This document shows, in pieces, positions 8,639-17,940 of a stretch of DNA of 41,312 bases. Below the pieces are notes generated by a model. The model saw only the letters and a list, made by a program, of their open reading frames with translations, had not been told where the DNA came from and searched no databases. The first letter of the stretch is position 1. Each line of letters opens with the position of its first letter. A program made the translations under genes and the position numbers. Origin of the DNA: a virus; the IMG/VR virus record IMGVR_UViG_3300022871_000039, positions 1 through 41,312 of that record; one strand, 5' to 3'.

Positions 8639-8758
8639 ATGAGTTTCCGAGAACCAGTCCATTATTTGGAGGTTGTTGATATTCCTCCATCTAATTTCAA
8701 GGAGAGGCTTGTTATTTTTTATAGAAAGTTTAAAGCATTATTAAAAGAGTTAAAATGA
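8639..8758 (+). CDS. Small ORF, 39 residues, unknown
   Basis: A short frame begins at ATG 8639, preceded by an AGAGG ribosome site, and ends TGA at 8756-8758, overlapping the ATG of the nuclease gene (ATGA). The coupling and ribosome site suggest it is translated. The product has a hydrophobic N-terminal half (HYLEVVDIPP) and a basic helix at the C-terminus. Function unknown. Confidence 0.5.
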   Translation: MSFREPVHYLEVVDIPPSNFKERLVIFYRKFKALLKELK

Positions 8759-9078
8759 CAGGACCATCAGAAGCTAAAAGTCATATAAGACTTTGTGATT
8801 TAGTTGAGAGGCATTGTGAAAAACACAAAGATTGGATCATTCTAAGAAATTATATTTACCACGAAGGTGGAAAAGATGGTGAGGTTGATGTCCTTGCTGC
8901 AACCAAGTACGGCTTTGTTTTTTATGAAATTAAAAGTACTCATATGGCCAAAAGATATACAAAAGCCACAGAGCAATTCTCACGATTCTATCAGTCACAC
9001 AAAAGGTGCGGCCAACATATTATAGGAGTTTATGTAACTCCAACATGTGTTAAAAGAATTAGGAGGCTATATGATTAG
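8755..9078 (+). CDS. PD-(D/E)XK nuclease, Hjc-like
   Basis: Encodes 107 residues. The nuclease core is clear: an N-terminal helix with Glu (VERHCEKH), then GGKDGEVDVLAA (catalytic Glu/Asp), and FVFYEIKST (the E-x-K motif), followed by a helix and a strand. This is the pattern of single-domain restriction-fold nucleases such as archaeal Holliday junction resolvases and RecB-like enzymes. It lies at the end of the late rightward operon, where it could resolve branched DNA before packaging. Its length fits a minimal Hjc-like domain. The exact substrate is not deducible. Confidence 0.65.
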   Translation: MTGPSEAKSHIRLCDLVERHCEKHKDWIILRNYIYHEGGKDGEVDVLAATKYGFVFYEIKSTHMAKRYTKATEQFSRFYQSHKRCGQHIIGVYVTPTCVKRIRRLYD

Positions 9079-9959: not shown

Positions 9960-10016
9960 TATTAAAAAATAAAAAGAATAACAAATAGAATAGAAAGAAC
10001 GCGAGTTATTTCTCGC
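9960..10016 (-). terminator. Terminator of the nucleotide/ligase operon
   Basis: On the minus strand GCGAG-AAATAA-CTCGC (10016-10001) is a 5-bp hairpin whose loop holds the ligase stop codon TAA (10008-10006). It is followed by a long U-rich tract down to about 9960. Hairpin plus U-tract suits transcription termination before promoter A. Confidence 0.65.
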
Positions 10017-10911
10017 ATTTCTCCTTTATTGAAGACAGTCTGGGATGTCTCAGTTTATCTTTAGCTCCATAGTCCATACTCTTGACAACAGCGTACTTTC
10101 CTATGTAGTCCTTTTGATTTTCCCAAATCTCTCTTCTGAATGTTTCGTCTCCGATGATTGAGACTTTTGTTTCAGTCTTCCCATTGGGCATTAGACAAAC
10201 AAAAGTTGCAGCAATTCCAGTTGACTCTTTATCTGCAACTGTATTTCTTTTGAAGCTGTGACCAAGTTCATTCGTCTGAGATTCATTTGTATTGTGAAGT
10301 CTTTCAGTAACTCCAATGATTTCTAGATCTTCTTCTTTATGAGGCTTAAGTTTGAATCCTATATGTTCTTTGATCGTAACTCTTCCACATTTATATTTCT
10401 TCGATCCATCCATCAGAACTGCGCCTTCAAAACCTTCTTCTAGGAATTCAGCATAAATAAATGCTGCATGGATATGAGTTTCAACTTTGTTCTGTTCAAC
10501 TTTTTCAACTTTATCTGTATCTTGAATAAAGCTTAATTTTTTTATTCTTGCTCCAAAAGGTAATTCTAAATCAACAACTCCGAATAAATATAGTTTTGTT
10601 CCTTTTGGAATATCTTTGTCTTTTGAATTACAAATTCCAGCCATTTCTCTACATGGAATTCCATCACAATATATTTCTCCTTCAAAAATTTCTTCTTCAA
10701 AATAATCATCTATAAGATTAATAAATTCTTCAAAATATTCATTAAGTTTATTGTTCTTAAACTCTTTGAAACTTCTTCCTTTTATTCCTTCGTTTGTAAT
10801 TTCGGCTCTCACTCCATCTCTTTTTATAGAAATATACATATTTGTATAATCTAATTCCTCTAAGTTGAATTCCTCATTACTTAGAAGCAGCGGTTTAAAT
10901 TTTTTCATCAT
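10006..10911 (-). CDS. ATP-dependent DNA ligase
   Basis: Encodes 301 residues from the ATG at 10911, whose ATGA overlaps the stop of the nuclease gene. Nucleotidyltransferase motifs are in order: motif I IKRDGVR with adenylated Lys30, motif III in IFEGEI, motif IV in GFEGAVL, and motif V in FKLKP. A C-terminal OB-like domain with ELGHSFKR and a Lys-rich end follows. The length matches compact viral ligases of the T7/T4 rnl-independent type, with no N-terminal DNA-binding domain. It seals nicks in viral DNA during replication and repair. It is the last gene of the nucleotide operon and its stop codon lies in the terminator loop. Confidence 0.88.
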   Translation of the reverse strand: MMKKFKPLLLSNEEFNLEELDYTNMYISIKRDGVRAEITNEGIKGRSFKEFKNNKLNEYFEEFINLIDDYFEEEIFEGEIYCDGIPCREMAGICNSKDKDIPKGTKLYLFGVVDLELPFGARIKKLSFIQDTDKVEKVEQNKVETHIHAAFIYAEFLEEGFEGAVLMDGSKKYKCGRVTIKEHIGFKLKPHKEEDLEIIGVTERLHNTNESQTNELGHSFKRNTVADKESTGIAATFVCLMPNGKTETKVSIIGDETFRREIWENQKDYIGKYAVVKSMDYGAKDKLRHPRLSSIKEKCEK

Positions 10912-11363
10912 TTTAATAACCTCATTTCTATATCGTCCCAACTGGGTCTTAGTTTGCAATCTCCAAATAATTCTAATGTTTCTTCCTCCTTTATGAAAGA
11001 TCTTTTTATTTTGTTTTTTCTTTCTATCCATACCTTAACAGGAATCAAAAATACTGAGGATCTATTTCTATTCAATCTCCAATAATTCAAAAGTAGAAAT
11101 CCCTTATTTCTATCCCAGCTTTCTTCCCACATTATCATTTTGTATTCCTGAGTGAATCTGTTTAGACTAAATCTAGGATCTGATTTTCTCTGGGTCATGA
11201 TTACTTCTTTGCATTCAACTATGATGTCCAACTCTTTAGATTGAATCATATAATCTCCTTTTTCTGAAGTACAAGCGAAGGGATTAACTTGGATTTTAGA
11301 AATAGTAAAATTTCCAAAGGATTTCATCTTAGTATAAAAATGTTTTTCTGTTACTTGTTTCAT
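10908..11363 (-). CDS. PD-(D/E)XK-type nuclease
   Basis: Encodes 151 residues from ATG 11363, which overlaps the deaminase stop (ATGA); an in-frame GTG at 11372 is less likely. The core shows an N-terminal helix, then GDYMIQSKELDIIVECKE, giving D-x(n)-E-x-K, the catalytic pattern of restriction-fold nucleases, followed by helices with several Trp residues. The C-terminal part is basic. It lies between dCMP deaminase and ligase, so it is likely a DNA repair or recombination nuclease. It is distinct in sequence from the nuclease at 8755. Confidence 0.55.
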   Translation of the reverse strand: MKQVTEKHFYTKMKSFGNFTISKIQVNPFACTSEKGDYMIQSKELDIIVECKEVIMTQRKSDPRFSLNRFTQEYKMIMWEESWDRNKGFLLLNYWRLNRNRSSVFLIPVKVWIERKNKIKRSFIKEEETLELFGDCKLRPSWDDIEMRLLK

Positions 11364-11767
11364 ATTTTCCACAACCTTAAATCCTTCAGAAAAGGATTTT
11401 CAAATATTTTATAATCATTGATATAATAAACATCTTCAATTCCTGCTTGTATTAAAAGTTTCGTACATGAAGGACAAGGAAGGTGTGTGACAAAAGCCAC
11501 ACACCCTGAGGAAGAAATTCCTTGTTTGGCAAGGAACATCAGCGCGTTTTGTTCTGCATGAATTGTTCTTATGCAATGCCCATCAACCATTAAATGCCCT
11601 TCTGAATCACATTCAGGAGCTCCAGGAAGACTTCCATTGTAACCTGTGGAAATTATTCTACCTTCTTTTAAGATCAAACATCCCACTCGTGCACGATTGC
11701 AACTTGATGCTTCTCCTAATATTTCTACAATCTTTTTATAGGTTTCTGTTCTTCTTTTACTGAGCAT
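11360..11767 (-). CDS. Deoxycytidylate (dCMP) deaminase
   Basis: Encodes 135 residues. Zinc and catalytic motifs are complete: HAEQNAL at residues 70-76 (His ligand and proton-shuttle Glu) and PCPSC at 97-101 (two Cys ligands). TGYNGSLPG at 41-49 is the substrate loop typical of dCMP deaminase rather than cytidine deaminase, and the additional Cys/His residues near 53-65 fit the second zinc site of that family. It converts dCMP to dUMP. In T4, this enzyme works beside dCMP hydroxymethylase and dCTPase. The gene overlaps the amidotransferase stop by 11 bases. Confidence 0.9.
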   Translation of the reverse strand: MLSKRRTETYKKIVEILGEASSCNRARVGCLILKEGRIISTGYNGSLPGAPECDSEGHLMVDGHCIRTIHAEQNALMFLAKQGISSSGCVAFVTHLPCPSCTKLLIQAGIEDVYYINDYKIFENPFLKDLRLWKI

Positions 11768-13271
11768 TTTTGCACCTCTTATTGAATTCTAAAAGAATCT
11801 TCATTCTTACTTCGTCCATGTCTTGAAATAATTTCAAAGGTCTTTTGCCTTGAACCTGGATAGTGTGCCCGACTTTCAATTCTTGGAGTCTATGTCGAAT
11901 CCAAATTTTATTGTGGACTTCATTTATATTTTCCGAGGGATCGGAATTTACAGCTGTTTCAATTAGATCTTTATACAAGAAAGGACATCGGGCTTCTATT
12001 CCAAATTCAGAAAATATCATGTCAATTCTTTTCATATGATAATCCACCAACTCAAAATTAAGATCTATTTTTCTTATTTCTTTCAGAGTAATTTTTTTGT
12101 CTTTCAGTCCAATATTCATTTTACCAATTCTTCTCAAATAACTAGAACCTCCATTCCTTTGAGCTTCCATGTGTCTTTTATATCCAAAGAACATTTCATC
12201 TGCTCCTTCTCCCAATATCACAACTTTGATTTCGGGGAAGTCATTCTTGATTTTCTCAGCCATAACATAAGTCAAAAGCATTGAACCAAGTTCTATTGGA
12301 GAATCAATATGTTTAACAAGATCGGGAATTCTTTCCAATAAATCATCTTTCATAATTAAGATCTCATGATGTTTAGTATTATATTTTTCAGCAAGCATTC
12401 TTGCATTAACAACATCTTCATCATCTCTTTCAAATCCAATTGTGATAGTTGTTAAATCTATCTCAGGAGACATTTCTTTTATCTCTGCTAATAACAAACT
12501 GGAATCCAATCCTCCACTTAAACATAAGGCGAAAGGTACGTCCATGTTTCCTATCTTAGCATGAATTGATTTCTTCAAATTATATTTGAAATCTGTATAG
12601 CATTGTTTATGATATGTTTGATTTAGATCTTGAGCCTGAATTAGTTTGCCATTCAAATACATTTGTCCTGGTTGTAAAGCTACAACATCTTCAAATACGC
12701 TATCTGAATATCCCAAACTCATAACTGACATCAAAGCAAGTTTACAATATTTTTTTGTCTTTGATAACAAAAATTGTTTTGAACTGAAACAGTCATCAGT
12801 GAAGTATAAAGGTTTTTCGCCTATACAATCTCTGAATAGAATTTTGTTTTCATATAAACGATCGTAGATTGCAAGAGCAAACATTCCATTTAAATGTTTT
12901 AAGTTTGTTGGATCTTCCCTACAATGTGACATGTAGAAATCCAAAACGATTTCCGTGTCACATTTAGTTTTCTGTTTATACTCAGGAACTTTGTCTCTTA
13001 TTAGATTGATGATTTCTTCAGGATTCCATAATTCGCCATTATAAGTAATCATGACTTCTGTGTTCTCTCCTTCTGAATCAGCTCTGTACATTGGTTGTCG
13101 ACCATTGATTGGATCTAAATCTTGGATTGCCAATCTAGTATGTCCGAACTCTACAATTCCCATTCGTTCAATTCCTTGTCCGTCAGGGCCTCTGTTTTTT
13201 AAATCTTTTATGTTGTCCTTTACAAAATCTCTATTTGTATCAGCGTCCCATGTTCCTATTATTCCACACAT
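11757..13271 (-). CDS. Asparagine synthetase-like glutamine amidotransferase
   Basis: Encodes 504 residues. The start at 13271 is fixed by a perfect GGAGGAA ribosome site and by the need for Cys at position 2 (MCGIIG), the class II glutaminase nucleophile. Glutamine-site residues are present: RGPDG, HTRLAI, YNGELWN (74-83) and CDTE (104-107). The C-terminal synthetase domain has the PP-loop LSGGLDSS (251-258) and LGEGADEMFFGY. Both active sites look intact; AsnB proteins are usually 550 or more residues. It may make asparagine for the infected cell, or use the adenylation-amidation chemistry on another substrate such as a modified base. Its place amid five deoxynucleotide genes favours the second idea, but this is inference. 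Confidence 0.8.
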   Translation of the reverse strand: MCGIIGTWDADTNRDFVKDNIKDLKNRGPDGQGIERMGIVEFGHTRLAIQDLDPINGRQPMYRADSEGENTEVMITYNGELWNPEEIINLIRDKVPEYKQKTKCDTEIVLDFYMSHCREDPTNLKHLNGMFALAIYDRLYENKILFRDCIGEKPLYFTDDCFSSKQFLLSKTKKYCKLALMSVMSLGYSDSVFEDVVALQPGQMYLNGKLIQAQDLNQTYHKQCYTDFKYNLKKSIHAKIGNMDVPFALCLSGGLDSSLLLAEIKEMSPEIDLTTITIGFERDDEDVVNARMLAEKYNTKHHEILIMKDDLLERIPDLVKHIDSPIELGSMLLTYVMAEKIKNDFPEIKVVILGEGADEMFFGYKRHMEAQRNGGSSYLRRIGKMNIGLKDKKITLKEIRKIDLNFELVDYHMKRIDMIFSEFGIEARCPFLYKDLIETAVNSDPSENINEVHNKIWIRHRLQELKVGHTIQVQGKRPLKLFQDMDEVRMKILLEFNKRCKNAQ

Positions 13272-13293
13272 TTTCTTCCTCCAAATTAAATGT

Positions 13294-13995
13294 TTAGTAA
13301 ATTCCTTCCGGAAAATCTTTCTTGTATGCGTGCAGGCTTCCTGCAAACATTATGAACTTTCCAACTTTGAGATCTAATTCATTAGCTACAAAGTTTCTGA
13401 ATTTGATTGCGTGCCAGATGTCGTTCTTGAAATGAGTTAAGAAGTCAGTGCTTCTCATTGTGTAGATCAAATCTAGTTTTCCGTTTCTAATCATCAATTG
13501 ATAATACATGCTACATGGAACTCTTGATTTTCCTCCCATCTTATCTTGGTCAATATCCCTATTATGGAATTGAACAATCACTTGTCTAGAATCTGGATTT
13601 CTTCTGAGTTCTTCGATGCAAGCATCTATTTGTTTTTGCATACGTTCATTGTATGTATAACAGAATTTTCCATTAACTAGGAACTGTTCCCAGACATCAT
13701 TTCGAAGTTTATAAGCTTCGCCGGGATTTGTAGTTTCAACAGAAGGATTGTCCCATCCATTAATTCTTTCAAGATGTTCAGCTTCACACCAATTCAAACA
13801 AGATCCAACCATTTCATTCATATCATTATCATTCATAATCATAAATGAATAGCCTTGCAGCTCTTTAGTCATATATGAATCGTCATCTTTAACAATCTTA
13901 TTTTGCATAGATTGTGGGTGAACTTCAATCCCCATCTCAAATAAATCCCTTTGGATTTCTGAAATTGCCTCAATACAATTTTTATATATTCTCAT
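13294..13995 (-). CDS. ThyA-family enzyme with dCMP-type Asp; putative dCMP hydroxymethylase
   Basis: Encodes 233 residues. An ungapped alignment with E. coli ThyA is possible from PC146 to the HxY motif: Cys161 (PCSMYYQ) is the nucleophile, R181-S182 and D184 match R166-S167-D169, and H222/Y224 match the His and Tyr that bind the deoxyribose. The position of Asn177, which recognises dUMP, is Asp192 (KNDIWHA). Asp at this site is the hallmark of T4 dCMP hydroxymethylase, and Asn-to-Asp in L. casei ThyA switches preference to dCMP. The protein is also shorter than ThyA, ending soon after the HxY motif. It probably hydroxymethylates or methylates dCMP. Overlaps the upstream gene by ATGA. Confidence 0.72.
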   Translation of the reverse strand: MRIYKNCIEAISEIQRDLFEMGIEVHPQSMQNKIVKDDDSYMTKELQGYSFMIMNDNDMNEMVGSCLNWCEAEHLERINGWDNPSVETTNPGEAYKLRNDVWEQFLVNGKFCYTYNERMQKQIDACIEELRRNPDSRQVIVQFHNRDIDQDKMGGKSRVPCSMYYQLMIRNGKLDLIYTMRSTDFLTHFKNDIWHAIKFRNFVANELDLKVGKFIMFAGSLHAYKKDFPEGIY

Positions 13996-14195
13996 TTTCT
14001 TTTACCTTTATATGGACAAGACCTACATTCGCTTCTTTCTTCGATCGGTGTTTCAGGTTTGTAATCTATACACTCAGGAAACATTCCAATACATTTCGGA
14101 AACGCTTTGTCCTTCCTTGAAGAAACCAAAGCGTTTGTTTCAGTTTCTTTTCTTTGTTGTTGTTTCTTAGCATCTGAAGTCTTGTATGATACCAT
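13992..14195 (-). CDS. Small four-Cys (zinc-binding) protein
   Basis: Encodes 67 residues, beginning directly after the dUTPase-like stop codon (TAAATG). The N-terminal half is hydrophilic with Lys/Gln/Thr-rich sequence. The C-terminal half has four cysteines (KCIGMFPEC ... ECRSCPYKG) spaced as in a small zinc finger. The end overlaps the ThyA-family start (ATGA). It could be a DNA-binding or protein-binding accessory for its neighbours; no family name can be given. Confidence 0.6.
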   Translation of the reverse strand: MVSYKTSDAKKQQQRKETETNALVSSRKDKAFPKCIGMFPECIDYKPETPIEERSECRSCPYKGKRK

Positions 14196-14861
14196 TTAAT
14201 AATCGCTCCGTTGTCGGAATTGGTTGACTTTGTTCTTTTTAAAATAGAGATTATAGATGTCACAATCATCTAATCCTACTGCTCTTAAACAAGCAACGAG
14301 TGAATCAAATGCTTGGATTAGATATTGAGTAAAGATTGGAACGTCAGTCAAGACATGTGTTTTTTTCCATTTCTTATTTCTTAATTTGTTTCCTGCTAAA
14401 GTTAAGTTCTGAATTATTTCCCAATGTCTTACTTTAAATCCTGTAGGAGTTAGATCCATGTTTCCTGAAGTTTTTCCATATGTTGAAATATCTAAAAATT
14501 CAGATCTATCAATTCCGGCAATTATACAAAGCTCTACAAAGAAATGAATTGAGTCTATTAATTCTTCTGAGTAATGAGTTTGATCCAAATCACAAATCAT
14601 CGACCAATCCTTTTTGGCAAATTCATTTATTAGAATTACTTCAAATGATTCTCCAACTTCTTCCGTTGTTCGATATAAAAAATCTTTTAGCCAAACTTGA
14701 CCTTCCATAGTATGAACATTTGTTTCAGTAGATTCAAGCAGGTCTCCCATGTTCTCTATGTCTACATACTTCTTTGCAAGCTCCATTTGTTTTTCAAATA
14801 TTGCTCCTAAAATATCTTGCGGAATTTCATCCGCTTCTTTCATCTCGTTTACACTTACCAT
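14196..14861 (-). CDS. All-alpha dUTPase/dCTPase-type NTP pyrophosphatase
   Basis: Encodes 221 residues. The dimeric dUTPase (MazG-superfamily) signatures are visible: TTEEVGES at residues 65-72 and SEELIDSIHFFVEL at 98-111, which supply the acidic Mg ligands, and a C-terminal YFKKNKVNQFRQRSDY matching the family's 'Y..KN..N..RQ..gY' end. These enzymes hydrolyse dUTP/dUDP, and relatives act on dCTP. In T4, dCTPase-dUTPase supplies dCMP to the hydroxymethylase and keeps unmodified C out of DNA. The same pairing here supports a base-modification or dNTP-pool role. Confidence 0.72.
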   Translation of the reverse strand: MVSVNEMKEADEIPQDILGAIFEKQMELAKKYVDIENMGDLLESTETNVHTMEGQVWLKDFLYRTTEEVGESFEVILINEFAKKDWSMICDLDQTHYSEELIDSIHFFVELCIIAGIDRSEFLDISTYGKTSGNMDLTPTGFKVRHWEIIQNLTLAGNKLRNKKWKKTHVLTDVPIFTQYLIQAFDSLVACLRAVGLDDCDIYNLYFKKNKVNQFRQRSDY

Positions 14862-14862
14862 T

Positions 14863-15411
14863 TTATTCTTCCTCTCGTTGTAAAAAATTTCGAATCAACT
14901 CAATTTCAGTTTCTCCATTGTCTGCCATAATCATATATGGCAATTTTGAAAATTTTGTCACGAATCTAATATATCTTGACCATAGATCTTCGATCTGTTC
15001 TCTGTTAATGTGTTCGTCTCCTCTCTTGTCAAATCTTCCATAGATTGTATTAATCGAAGGACACATGTGAATGAACAAAATTTGTTCAACATTAGTTGCA
15101 TTCATTAATGAGTCTTCAAAAGTTCTATACCAATCATCGTCAAAAGGTTCATATCCTCTTAGTTTTCCATATACCATTTCCGACATATAGAAACGATCGA
15201 TGATTACATATTCATAACTAGGGACCGATTCAATCAAAGATTTTATTCCTTCATAATTATCTTTTACTTTAGGAATTGTACTTTCATCGCTCGGCCTGAA
15301 ATTGTTCTTAATTAATAAGGAATTTCTGAATCTCTTATCTTTTGATATTCTTTCAATCAAAGTTGACTTGCCTGAGCAATCAACGCCGTCTACAATTATT
15401 ATTTTCGTCAT
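14863..15411 (-). CDS. Thymidylate kinase-like deoxynucleoside monophosphate kinase
   Basis: Encodes 182 residues. P-loop GVDCSGKST at residues 9-17, DRFYMSEMVYG at 72-82 (the DR(Y/F/H) substrate motif of the dNK/TMK family), and an Arg-containing lid region (YGRFDKRGDEH) are in the expected order. It would phosphorylate dTMP or a modified dNMP. It is the first gene behind promoter B; the TATA centre is about 33 nt before the ATG, so the mRNA has only a very short leader. T4 gp1, the kinase for hydroxymethyl-dCMP, plays the equivalent part in that phage. Confidence 0.75.
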   Translation of the reverse strand: MTKIIIVDGVDCSGKSTLIERISKDKRFRNSLLIKNNFRPSDESTIPKVKDNYEGIKSLIESVPSYEYVIIDRFYMSEMVYGKLRGYEPFDDDWYRTFEDSLMNATNVEQILFIHMCPSINTIYGRFDKRGDEHINREQIEDLWSRYIRFVTKFSKLPYMIMADNGETEIELIRNFLQREEE

Positions 15412-15421
15412 CTTCTTATAC

Positions 15422-15448
15422 GTATGTACAGGGGTATTACTTTATAAA
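15422..15448 (-). promoter_or_regulatory. Leftward promoter B with operator repeat
   Basis: TTTATAAA at 15441-15448 with GTATGT at 15422 and GTATTA at 15434, again 12 bp apart. The stop codon of the DNA polymerase gene (TAA, 15444-15442) lies inside this TATA box. Drives the nucleotide operon starting at 15411. Confidence 0.78.
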
Positions 15449-17940
15449 TCTTCCTCTTTGTCAAGTTTGACCTTTAACTTATTGATATAGGTTTCTGCTT
15501 GTTTCTCTGTCATCTTTTTCATTCTCCACAATGTATAGTTCTTCAGAATCTCTTCGGGATTTGTAACAAACAAAACTTTCATGATGCAAGTGATAATCCT
15601 CTCCCAATAATATTCACGATCGTAGTCAGATCCTTTTGCATATTCTTCAGGTGTGATTGCAACAATCGGTCCAGTCTCTTGAACGACATAAGATATTTGG
15701 TCTCCTGTGTAAATATCTTTTCCTTCTTCCATTAATCTTTTTGCCAATTTAACATGTGCAGGAATTGGTGCATATCTCATTTCTCCATTTTTATTTATCT
15801 TGGGTAATCCAGTTTTAGAATCAATCATTGGCTTTCCATATTCGTCCATGTTCTTATTAATGGATTTCTTCATAACCAAATATTTTGGATCCATTTCATT
15901 GTTGATTAATTGATTCTTAATTCCTTTCAGTTCAGTCAGGAATTTATCAACATCTTGATTTTCATATAAGACTTCTTCGATCAATCTCTTCTGATAGATT
16001 CTTGCCAATTCATTTGTATCTTTTTTGATACATTCTAAACCTGTTATACTTACATTTGGTTCTCCTATTTGATTTCCTTCTGTGTCTCTTGAAACTTTAA
16101 GATCCGCATAATTCTTTTTCATTATTGAAATCATTCGATCGAAATCTTTCTCATATTCAAATATGATAAAGTGAGGTTTCTGAACTGTTCCTTCTCCTTT
16201 CAAGTTCTTATGAGTAAACATTTTGGAACACATATTTTGTTTCTTGGCGAACTCATCAAAATAATCCGCAAACTCTATTTCAAGTTCTTCCTTTGTTATA
16301 AGATTCTTTTCATTCTTGAACATGATTGAGTCTGTATCTCCTTGAATCACAATGAACCCATTTCTTTCAGCTATCTTAACACATTCTTTAATGATATATC
16401 TACAGAATTGAGTTATTGAATTTGCAACATCTTCAACAAAGAATCTAAAGATCTTTTGACCTACTACGCCGTAACCTGAACAGCCTAATGTTTTATAGTT
16501 CCAATCTTCCGATTCGAGTTTCATAAATTTCTCTGGGTCTGATTCCTTATATTGCCATTTAGTAGTCTTGGCATTGTCTCTGAGTGCAATCAACTCTCCC
16601 ATTCGATCCGCCAACACTCCTCTTATATCTGTTCTATAATATTTCTCTTCGAACTTAGTATCGACAGATTTGGATCCTACTTTAATAGTATGAACATCTG
16701 CAGGGATTGTAGTGTAAGAAATTCCTTTGGCTTCAGCTTCTTCTTTAGAGATTAGAGTTGTAACACAAATGTTTGCTCCATCAACTGTTGTTGGATAGAA
16801 TGATTTAAAATCGAAAACCACAACATTGTTATGAACTCCGGGGTTTAAACAGAATGTATAAGCTCCTGCAACATTACAATATTTGTTTCTTCTTTCTTTC
16901 TCTTCATCATTAGGTTTTGTTGGTGCGACCAAACCGTTCTTCCTATAATCCTGTAAAAGCATTATGTCCCAGATTTCTGAGTTGTGAAGTGTTTCTTGTA
17001 TAAAACAATTTACATAATCACATTGGGTCATGTGCAGTTTTATGAATCCAAACTTCTTTTCAAGTTTAACCATGAGTTCTACATCTTTCATATTGTACTT
17101 CTCTAGTGTATCATCTCCTTCGAAAGATTTCTTCCAGAGGTTAAGAATTCCACCATTTCCTTTTTCCATCACATGGATCTTTTCGTCTTTCAGAATATCC
17201 TTTGCAACATTATCAAGTGCATAGCTTGGAAGTCTAGGAAATAAATTTTTCTTAACTAATTCCATATAGTCTAATTGATTAATGAAGTCCCATGGGGTAT
17301 TGTCGATTTGGTGTAGTTCATTCCTTTGTTTTATATAAGTATCATCAAATCTATAAGAGTTCCATCCCGAGATAATATCATAATGTTGTAGAATTTTCAT
17401 GTGAAATCTAAGAAGTTCTACCTCACCGCTCACAGGATCTTCCAAATTCTCATTCTTTATCCAATGTTTGTTCCCATCAATATCTTCATAAGCTATAGAA
17501 AGGATAGGTTCTCGAGCGATTATGGACCCTCTCATGTCCTTCTCTAAAGGAGAATCATCCTTTGTTTCAATATCATACTTAAGCCATTTCATTTCTGTGG
17601 AGTTCAATTCTTGCTCTCCCTTACAATCTATCAACCATCTTTTGTGAGCCTGAATGTCAGCTTCCATTAAAGTGATTCCTGAGAGTTCAAACTTAGACTT
17701 CAATTTATATCGATCGTTATTGTCTTTGAAATAAACCTTTATATAGTCTCCGAATTCTTCGATCTTGGCGATGTATTTGATTTCATTTTTAATCGTCATG
17801 ATATTTTCTTCGTAGATTGTTTTCTCAATATAGAAATAATTTTGAAATCGGATGTCTTCGAACTTTAAAAGTTCTCCATCTCTTACTTTTAATCTGAGAC
17901 CTGTAGCGGTCTCTCTCCCACGGATTATTGTTTTTACCAT
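15442..17940 (-). CDS. Family B DNA polymerase
   Basis: Encodes 832 residues. Exonuclease motifs: DIE (123-125), NSYRFDD (194-200) and YNMKDVEL (282-289). Polymerase motifs: A DFKSFYP (377-383), B KTLGCSGYG (483-491), and C GDTDS (534-538). Two details differ from the consensus: motif A has Phe for the usual Leu and ends YPT, and motif B reads CSGYG instead of NSxYG. It lacks the TPR2-type insertion needed for protein priming, so it is likely an RNA/DNA-primed replicase working with the primase-helicase. No promoter lies at the proper distance; an elaborate hairpin precedes the ATG by 20 bases. Its stop codon is part of promoter B. Confidence 0.93.
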   Translation of the reverse strand: MVKTIIRGRETATGLRLKVRDGELLKFEDIRFQNYFYIEKTIYEENIMTIKNEIKYIAKIEEFGDYIKVYFKDNNDRYKLKSKFELSGITLMEADIQAHKRWLIDCKGEQELNSTEMKWLKYDIETKDDSPLEKDMRGSIIAREPILSIAYEDIDGNKHWIKNENLEDPVSGEVELLRFHMKILQHYDIISGWNSYRFDDTYIKQRNELHQIDNTPWDFINQLDYMELVKKNLFPRLPSYALDNVAKDILKDEKIHVMEKGNGGILNLWKKSFEGDDTLEKYNMKDVELMVKLEKKFGFIKLHMTQCDYVNCFIQETLHNSEIWDIMLLQDYRKNGLVAPTKPNDEEKERRNKYCNVAGAYTFCLNPGVHNNVVVFDFKSFYPTTVDGANICVTTLISKEEAEAKGISYTTIPADVHTIKVGSKSVDTKFEEKYYRTDIRGVLADRMGELIALRDNAKTTKWQYKESDPEKFMKLESEDWNYKTLGCSGYGVVGQKIFRFFVEDVANSITQFCRYIIKECVKIAERNGFIVIQGDTDSIMFKNEKNLITKEELEIEFADYFDEFAKKQNMCSKMFTHKNLKGEGTVQKPHFIIFEYEKDFDRMISIMKKNYADLKVSRDTEGNQIGEPNVSITGLECIKKDTNELARIYQKRLIEEVLYENQDVDKFLTELKGIKNQLINNEMDPKYLVMKKSINKNMDEYGKPMIDSKTGLPKINKNGEMRYAPIPAHVKLAKRLMEEGKDIYTGDQISYVVQETGPIVAITPEEYAKGSDYDREYYWERIITCIMKVLFVTNPEEILKNYTLWRMKKMTEKQAETYINKLKVKLDKEEDL

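Follow-up and report, generated by a model that had tools for sequence, protein, structure and literature searches.

A candidate cytosine-hypermodification operon pairing a dCMP-type ThyA homologue with a virus-only family of AsnB-type amidotransferases

In the linear IMG/VR virus record IMGVR_UViG_3300022871_000039, which was analysed over its whole length of 41,312 bases (the window) and which contains terminase, portal and capsid genes, we have identified a minus-strand operon (positions 15411 to 10006) that, on balance, appears to equip the viral DNA with a hypermodified cytosine, with an AsnB-type enzyme leaving a glutamine-derived nitrogen on the C5 substituent of the base after hydroxymethylation of deoxycytidine monophosphate (dCMP). 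This assignment draws on features that can be read directly from the sequence, namely the gene content of the operon, the dCMP-type determinants of its ThyA homologue, the intact glutaminase and synthetase residues of its amidotransferase, the motifs of the family to which the latter belongs and the recurrent linkage between the two genes. More tentatively, and with somewhat less confidence than we would place in its converse, we propose that a virus-only AsnB-type family, distributed over some ten tailed-phage lineages, jumbo phages among them, turns ThyA-made 5-hydroxymethylcytosine into a nitrogen-bearing base, either 5-aminomethylcytosine or an amide, by a route that has not been described so far. 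Such an undescribed DNA base is suggested by the recurrence of this family beside dCMP-type ThyA in many unrelated phages.

In the proposed pathway, a dUTPase/dCTPase-type enzyme would hold dCTP low and supply dCMP, the ThyA homologue would put a one-carbon hydroxymethyl unit on C5 of this nucleotide, and a kinase together with host enzymes would raise the modified product to the triphosphate for incorporation by the family B DNA polymerase (PolB). The AsnB-type enzyme would hydrolyse glutamine, channel the released ammonia and use ATP to activate the modified cytosine, either as nucleotide or in DNA. The nitrogen left on the C5 substituent would be part of an amide in the case of prior carboxylate formation and of an aminomethyl group in the case of direct activation of the hydroxymethyl, the predicted final base being a 5-aminomethyl- or amide-bearing cytosine.

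The amidotransferase (504 residues, 11757..13271, minus strand) contains both domains of a class II enzyme of the asparagine synthetase type (Asn_synthase, 8e-40; GATase_7, 9e-23), as claimed in an earlier reading of the same DNA (the original prediction), although it starts at the ATG at 13271 (Met-Cys-Gly-Ile, with GGAGG upstream) and not at the TTG at 13346. The N-terminal Cys, the Arg, Asn-Gly-Glu and Asp residues, the SGGLDS ATP site and the E/D and catalytic Lys sites are all kept. The substrate pocket is changed: the sequence SPIELGSM replaces the TTIRAST of E. coli AsnB, which we take to be the aspartate-binding loop. Alignments place the signature loop E-L-G-S-M at residues 327-331 (12279..12293, minus strand) and a second signature, K-R-P-L-K, at the catalytic Lys of the synthetase domain (residues 476-480; 11832..11846, minus strand). 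Three synthetase-domain motifs, [DE]xGS[VMLA], [YF]HxxRxD and Kx[PA][LM][KR], are found in the window protein and in 70 of 70 non-redundant viral family members; the full set of three occurs in neither the 80 cellular AsnBs nor the four other viral ones. Our scan of viral sequences did not select for these motifs, since it used patterns from the glutaminase half. By these motifs, the window AsnB belongs to a family that is found only in viruses, has a changed substrate pocket and is linked to dCMP-type ThyA.

Scanning with the window AsnB as single protein returned no viral relative, and the viral relatives were found with a three-row alignment. Environmental contigs of jumbo phages frequently encode members of the family; no close relative was detected among 50,697 phage records and no isolate carrying the family was found, so that it would escape isolate-based work. 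The three motifs provide a simple marker for finding further members. One of the relatives (L166:2335-3717) has a Ser in place of the N-terminal Cys nucleophile and may therefore use free ammonia or another amine.

The scan with the AsnB alignment alone, in which ThyA played no part, yielded 80 viral loci, and in 13 of these a dCMP-type ThyA lies within 7 kb of AsnB, often directly adjacent. The original prediction had named amidotransferase homologues always found without a ThyA-like gene as an outcome that would speak against it; what we find is a repeated association. Most of the other loci are located in large phage genomes or their fragments, in which a long distance separates ThyA and AsnB. 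A dCMP-type ThyA is found on each of the ten contigs with AsnB that reach 230 kb or more, in most cases with a separate canonical thymidylate synthase (TS) besides; by comparison, this type of ThyA matches 107 of 50,697 phage records. In the reverse direction, five of the contigs selected by ThyA measure 215 kb or more, and four of these encode AsnB. When the loci obtained with AsnB, those obtained with ThyA and that of the window are pooled, the AsnB-linked ThyAs constitute ten lineages at 60% identity, which in the ThyA tree occupy no fewer than three clades. A P-loop kinase-like gene directly precedes AsnB in 64 of the 80 loci.

A different partner is found in most loci of this ThyA type. 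In 66 of 79 dCMP-type ThyA loci, a conserved companion of about 280 residues adjoins ThyA, between dUTPase_2 and ThyA (for example L011:4618-5466 and L402:3129-3938 of Serratia phage Serbin, and also in Streptomyces phage KimJongPhill). This protein occurs neither in the window nor in any AsnB-linked locus (Fisher p 0.0006 for the respective ThyA group, not corrected for relatedness), and no Asn_synthase match was obtained on any of the companion-bearing contigs tested. The companion may be an unrecognised DNA-modification enzyme, and it and AsnB may catalyse alternative second steps. Its initial classification by eye as TS-like was abandoned as it matches no solved structure, and we have for this reason left it unnamed. 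The prediction that every ThyA locus without the companion would carry AsnB failed for loci L050 and L071.

Several observations weigh against the proposed pathway. L050 and L071, two close ThyA relatives, are located on contigs of 158 and 106 kb that lack AsnB, which marks AsnB as an optional add-on. Several of the ten large AsnB contigs are near-identical or come from one phage group and do not count as ten independent cases. In a phylogenetic tree, the window AsnB is placed on the viral side on a long branch with weak support (0.47), and its family membership is carried by the motifs. To our knowledge, there is no precedent for the adenylation of an alcohol by AsnB enzymes, as the direct activation of a hydroxymethyl group would demand. 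Finally, a phmmer search of the window proteins found no match to CmoA or to CmoX, an SPPC C5 carboxymethyltransferase, and no carboxylate-forming gene, which leaves the amide- or amine-bearing cytosine of the original prediction with the hydroxymethylase features of ThyA and the recurrence of AsnB in its favour but with no CmoA/CmoX to feed a classical AsnB reaction.

The latter point leads to the strongest alternative, which we regard as the less likely one by some distance. In this case, another enzyme, encoded by the host, by an unrecognised viral gene or by the methyltransferase-like genes found in relatives, would make a carboxylate-bearing cytosine and AsnB would only amidate the carboxylate, with hydroxymethylation being incidental or blocking other sites. 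An AsnB homologue acting on a modified cytosine has its precedent in CmoY of Synechococcus phage S-B43, which ligates glycine to 5-carboxymethylcytosine, a base made by CmoX from carboxy-S-adenosylmethionine (Cx-SAM), and the second-largest cluster of CmoY ligases, which is untested, contains a glutamine amidase domain (PMC12783734). We find a CmoX-AsnB-CmoA arrangement, with an amidase domain in AsnB, in L099 (1141-4782) and a similar layout of ParB-ParB-methyltransferase-AsnB-methyltransferase in Streptomyces phage TurkishDelight (L405:2127-7155), both of which probably correspond to this published second cluster. The tested CmoX-linked AsnBs with an amidase domain (L099, L127) contain none of the three pocket motifs and branch with cellular AsnBs, and the ThyA-linked family is thus distinct in both motifs and context. 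An action resembling that of CmoY would need a carboxylate from elsewhere, whereas direct action on the hydroxymethyl would give 5-aminomethylcytosine.

Candidates for carboxylate formation adjoin ThyA-AsnB in ten loci. Four of these encode a C5-cytosine methyltransferase homologue with a Cys-rich C-terminal tail and HTECG instead of PPC in motif IV (L128:4792-6018, L145:4262-5491, L141:9093-10283 and L173:4208-5365, the motif being further changed in L173), and six an N4/N6-methyltransferase-like protein with GTPYP for the usual (S/D/N)PPY (L025:9012-9890, L030:9032-9943, L018:5947-6774, L102:5528-6655, L162:999-2150 and L169:5944-6873). However, neither type is present in the window or in the L126 and L142 loci, which speaks against this alternative.

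The ThyA homologue (233 residues, 13294..13995, minus strand; Pfam Thymidylat_synt, 4e-18) is a predicted dCMP hydroxymethylase, as judged from the alignment of its residues and from PDB, profile and fold matches. Its residues C161, S162, D184 and D192 correspond to C146, H147, D169 and N177 in the E. coli numbering. The catalytic core of TS is complete (Cys146, Tyr94, Arg126, Arg166, Ser167, Asp169, His207 and Tyr209, as well as Glu58). Asp169, presumably a folate-contacting residue, is kept in the window protein and in all 155 aligned sequences. The Asp at position 177 confirms the dCMP-type character that had been predicted for the protein; position 147 is occupied by Ser and the C-terminal tail of TS is missing, with no residue aligning to V262. 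In the MetaGPA study (PMC8670742), phage contigs with and without modification are distinguished by positions 177 and 147. In the study of MilA, Asp marks cytosine substrates and Arg and Ser at the positions of MilA 133 and 176 mark deoxy substrates, and the T4 hydroxymethylase is described as being devoid of the C-terminal tail (PMC5175136). The window ThyA carries every mark of the latter study, including the cytosine Asp, Arg126 and Ser167 for deoxy preference, and the absent tail. Its best sequence match in the PDB is T4 dCMP hydroxymethylase (2.8e-11), with a profile built from related ThyAs including that of the window, MilA and the T4 enzyme rank higher than any thymidylate synthase, and a confident structural model (predicted local distance difference test score of 93) has MilA as best fold match. 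At the level of sequence, the window ThyA resembles T4 dCMP hydroxymethylase more than TS, and 5-hydroxymethyl-dCMP is the best prediction for its product, in light of the absent tail, the residues for dCMP and deoxy substrates, the proximity to the T4 enzyme and MilA and the conservation of Asp169.

Although an N177D thymidylate synthase is cited in PMC8670742 as producing 5-methyl-dCMP, it appears improbable that the window ThyA yields this nucleotide or dTMP instead of 5-hydroxymethyl-dCMP, as it shares the lack of the C-terminal tail with the T4 hydroxymethylase and as its nearest solved relatives are hydroxymethylases. Still less probable is a flavin-dependent dCMP hydroxylase giving 5-hydroxycytosine, akin to AfhB of phage HY126 (9iqc/9iqu), which ranks second among the fold matches and fourth by sequence but contains an Asn at TS position 169 and scores below T4 hydroxymethylase by sequence. 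We assign a similarly low probability to AsnB being an auxiliary metabolic gene for the synthesis of asparagine in the infected host, next to genes of ordinary nucleotide metabolism: the protein has the full-length two-domain architecture, and its model matches the AsnB fold (1ct9), but its score for the asparagine synthetase equivalog TIGR01536 (249.1 bits) is below the curated cut-off of 267.1, and with its replaced substrate loop and the repeated linkage to dCMP-type ThyA, it is, as far as can be told from these features, not an ordinary asparagine synthetase.

Three further observations concern the ThyA group. A replacement of Glu58 by His, as initially suggested by a MAFFT alignment, was discarded since the motif [WIK]ELxGxSF keeps the Glu, and we therefore claim no altered ThyA chemistry; an apparent change of Trp80 in the same clade is subject to the same alignment caveat. 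A second, divergent TS-like protein is located near the dCMP-type ThyA in L050 (8596-9534) and L071 (9368-10300), which are both among the nearest ThyA relatives and lack AsnB. In record G032 (the L130 contig, 396502-398409), a dCMP-type ThyA is found in two parts within one open frame of 637 residues, suggesting an intein-like insertion.

The operon itself was correctly recognised in the original prediction. Its kinase, dUTPase/dCTPase-type enzyme, ThyA homologue and dCMP deaminase match Pfam families, and all its named genes follow one another in head-to-tail orientation on the minus strand. Directly upstream on the same strand is PolB (15442..17940; PF00136, 2e-33). The first gene encodes a P-loop deoxynucleotide kinase of the dNK/TMK type, a candidate kinase for (modified) dCMP (182 residues, 14863..15411; PF01712 (dNK), 2e-6; PF02223 (Thymidylate_kin), 5e-5; PHROG thymidylate kinase, 2e-19), followed by a dimeric dUTPase/dCTPase-type pyrophosphatase (dUTPase_2, 221 residues, 14196..14861; PF08761, 2e-12), whose family adjoins ThyA in most related loci. 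An open reading frame of 67 residues (13992..14195) contains the four Cys noted previously; it has no match in family searches, including Pfam and PHROG, and probably encodes a small zinc-binding protein. Downstream of ThyA and AsnB are the dCMP deaminase (135 residues, 11360..11767; PF00383, 4e-22; PHROG dCMP deaminase, 1e-38), a putative nuclease or resolvase (154 residues, 10908..11372) and an ATP-dependent DNA ligase (10006..11031; PF01068, 3e-8; PHROG, 7e-43), all on the minus strand. The predicted nuclease exists as a reading frame, its identity being suggested by a weak PHROG match (Holliday junction resolvase, E 0.0014), and the ligase holds except for its start, which is probably near 10911 as the long frame overlaps the nuclease gene. 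Apart from the nuclease and the four-Cys frame, all operon genes match known families with E-values far beyond chance. PADLOC gave no more than weak and uninformative matches. In the window, a small NERD-domain (nuclease-related) protein (8755-9078; PF08378, 5e-6) adjoins the tail module.

Hypermodification of phage DNA is a factor in how phages compete with restriction and CRISPR systems, and it is a source of tools for DNA chemistry. If our proposal is correct, the use of a ThyA-made handle by an amidotransferase would define a new branch of this chemistry, possibly leading to a positively charged or amide-bearing cytosine; in the literature searched, no paper joins a dCMP hydroxymethylase with an asparagine synthase or names aminomethylcytosine or carbamoyl(methyl)cytosine. 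Compared to E. coli AsnB (1ct9), the window protein shares the fold and the residues of the glutaminase and ATP sites, whereas its substrate loop is replaced by [DE]xGS[VMLA], the two other motifs are added and the C-terminus is shorter. The operon resembles the hydroxymethylcytosine set of T4 (gp42, gp56, gp1, cd) in its dCMP hydroxymethylase-type enzyme, dCTPase/dUTPase, kinase and dCMP deaminase, but its kinase is dNK/TMK-like and a glutamine amidotransferase takes the place of the glucosyltransferases that decorate the base in T4. Glycosylation and carbamoylation are the known second steps on hydroxymethylcytosine. Loci for the carbamoylation of 5-hydroxymethylcytosine share with the window a ThyA with Asp177, a pyrophosphohydrolase, a dCMP deaminase and a second-step enzyme, which in these loci is a carbamoyltransferase and in the window is of the AsnB type (PMC8670742); the carbamoyltransferase domains PF02543 and PF16861 have no match among the 20 window proteins scanned. 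Finally, the CmoA/CmoX/CmoY system likewise encodes an AsnB-homologous ATP-dependent ligase beside an enzyme modifying C5 of cytosine. It differs in the origin of the handle, which is derived from Cx-SAM via CmoX and in the window from a ThyA-type enzyme, and in CmoY of S-B43, which unlike the window AsnB has no amidase domain, while the decoration of a C5 handle by an AsnB-type ligase would be the principle common to both.

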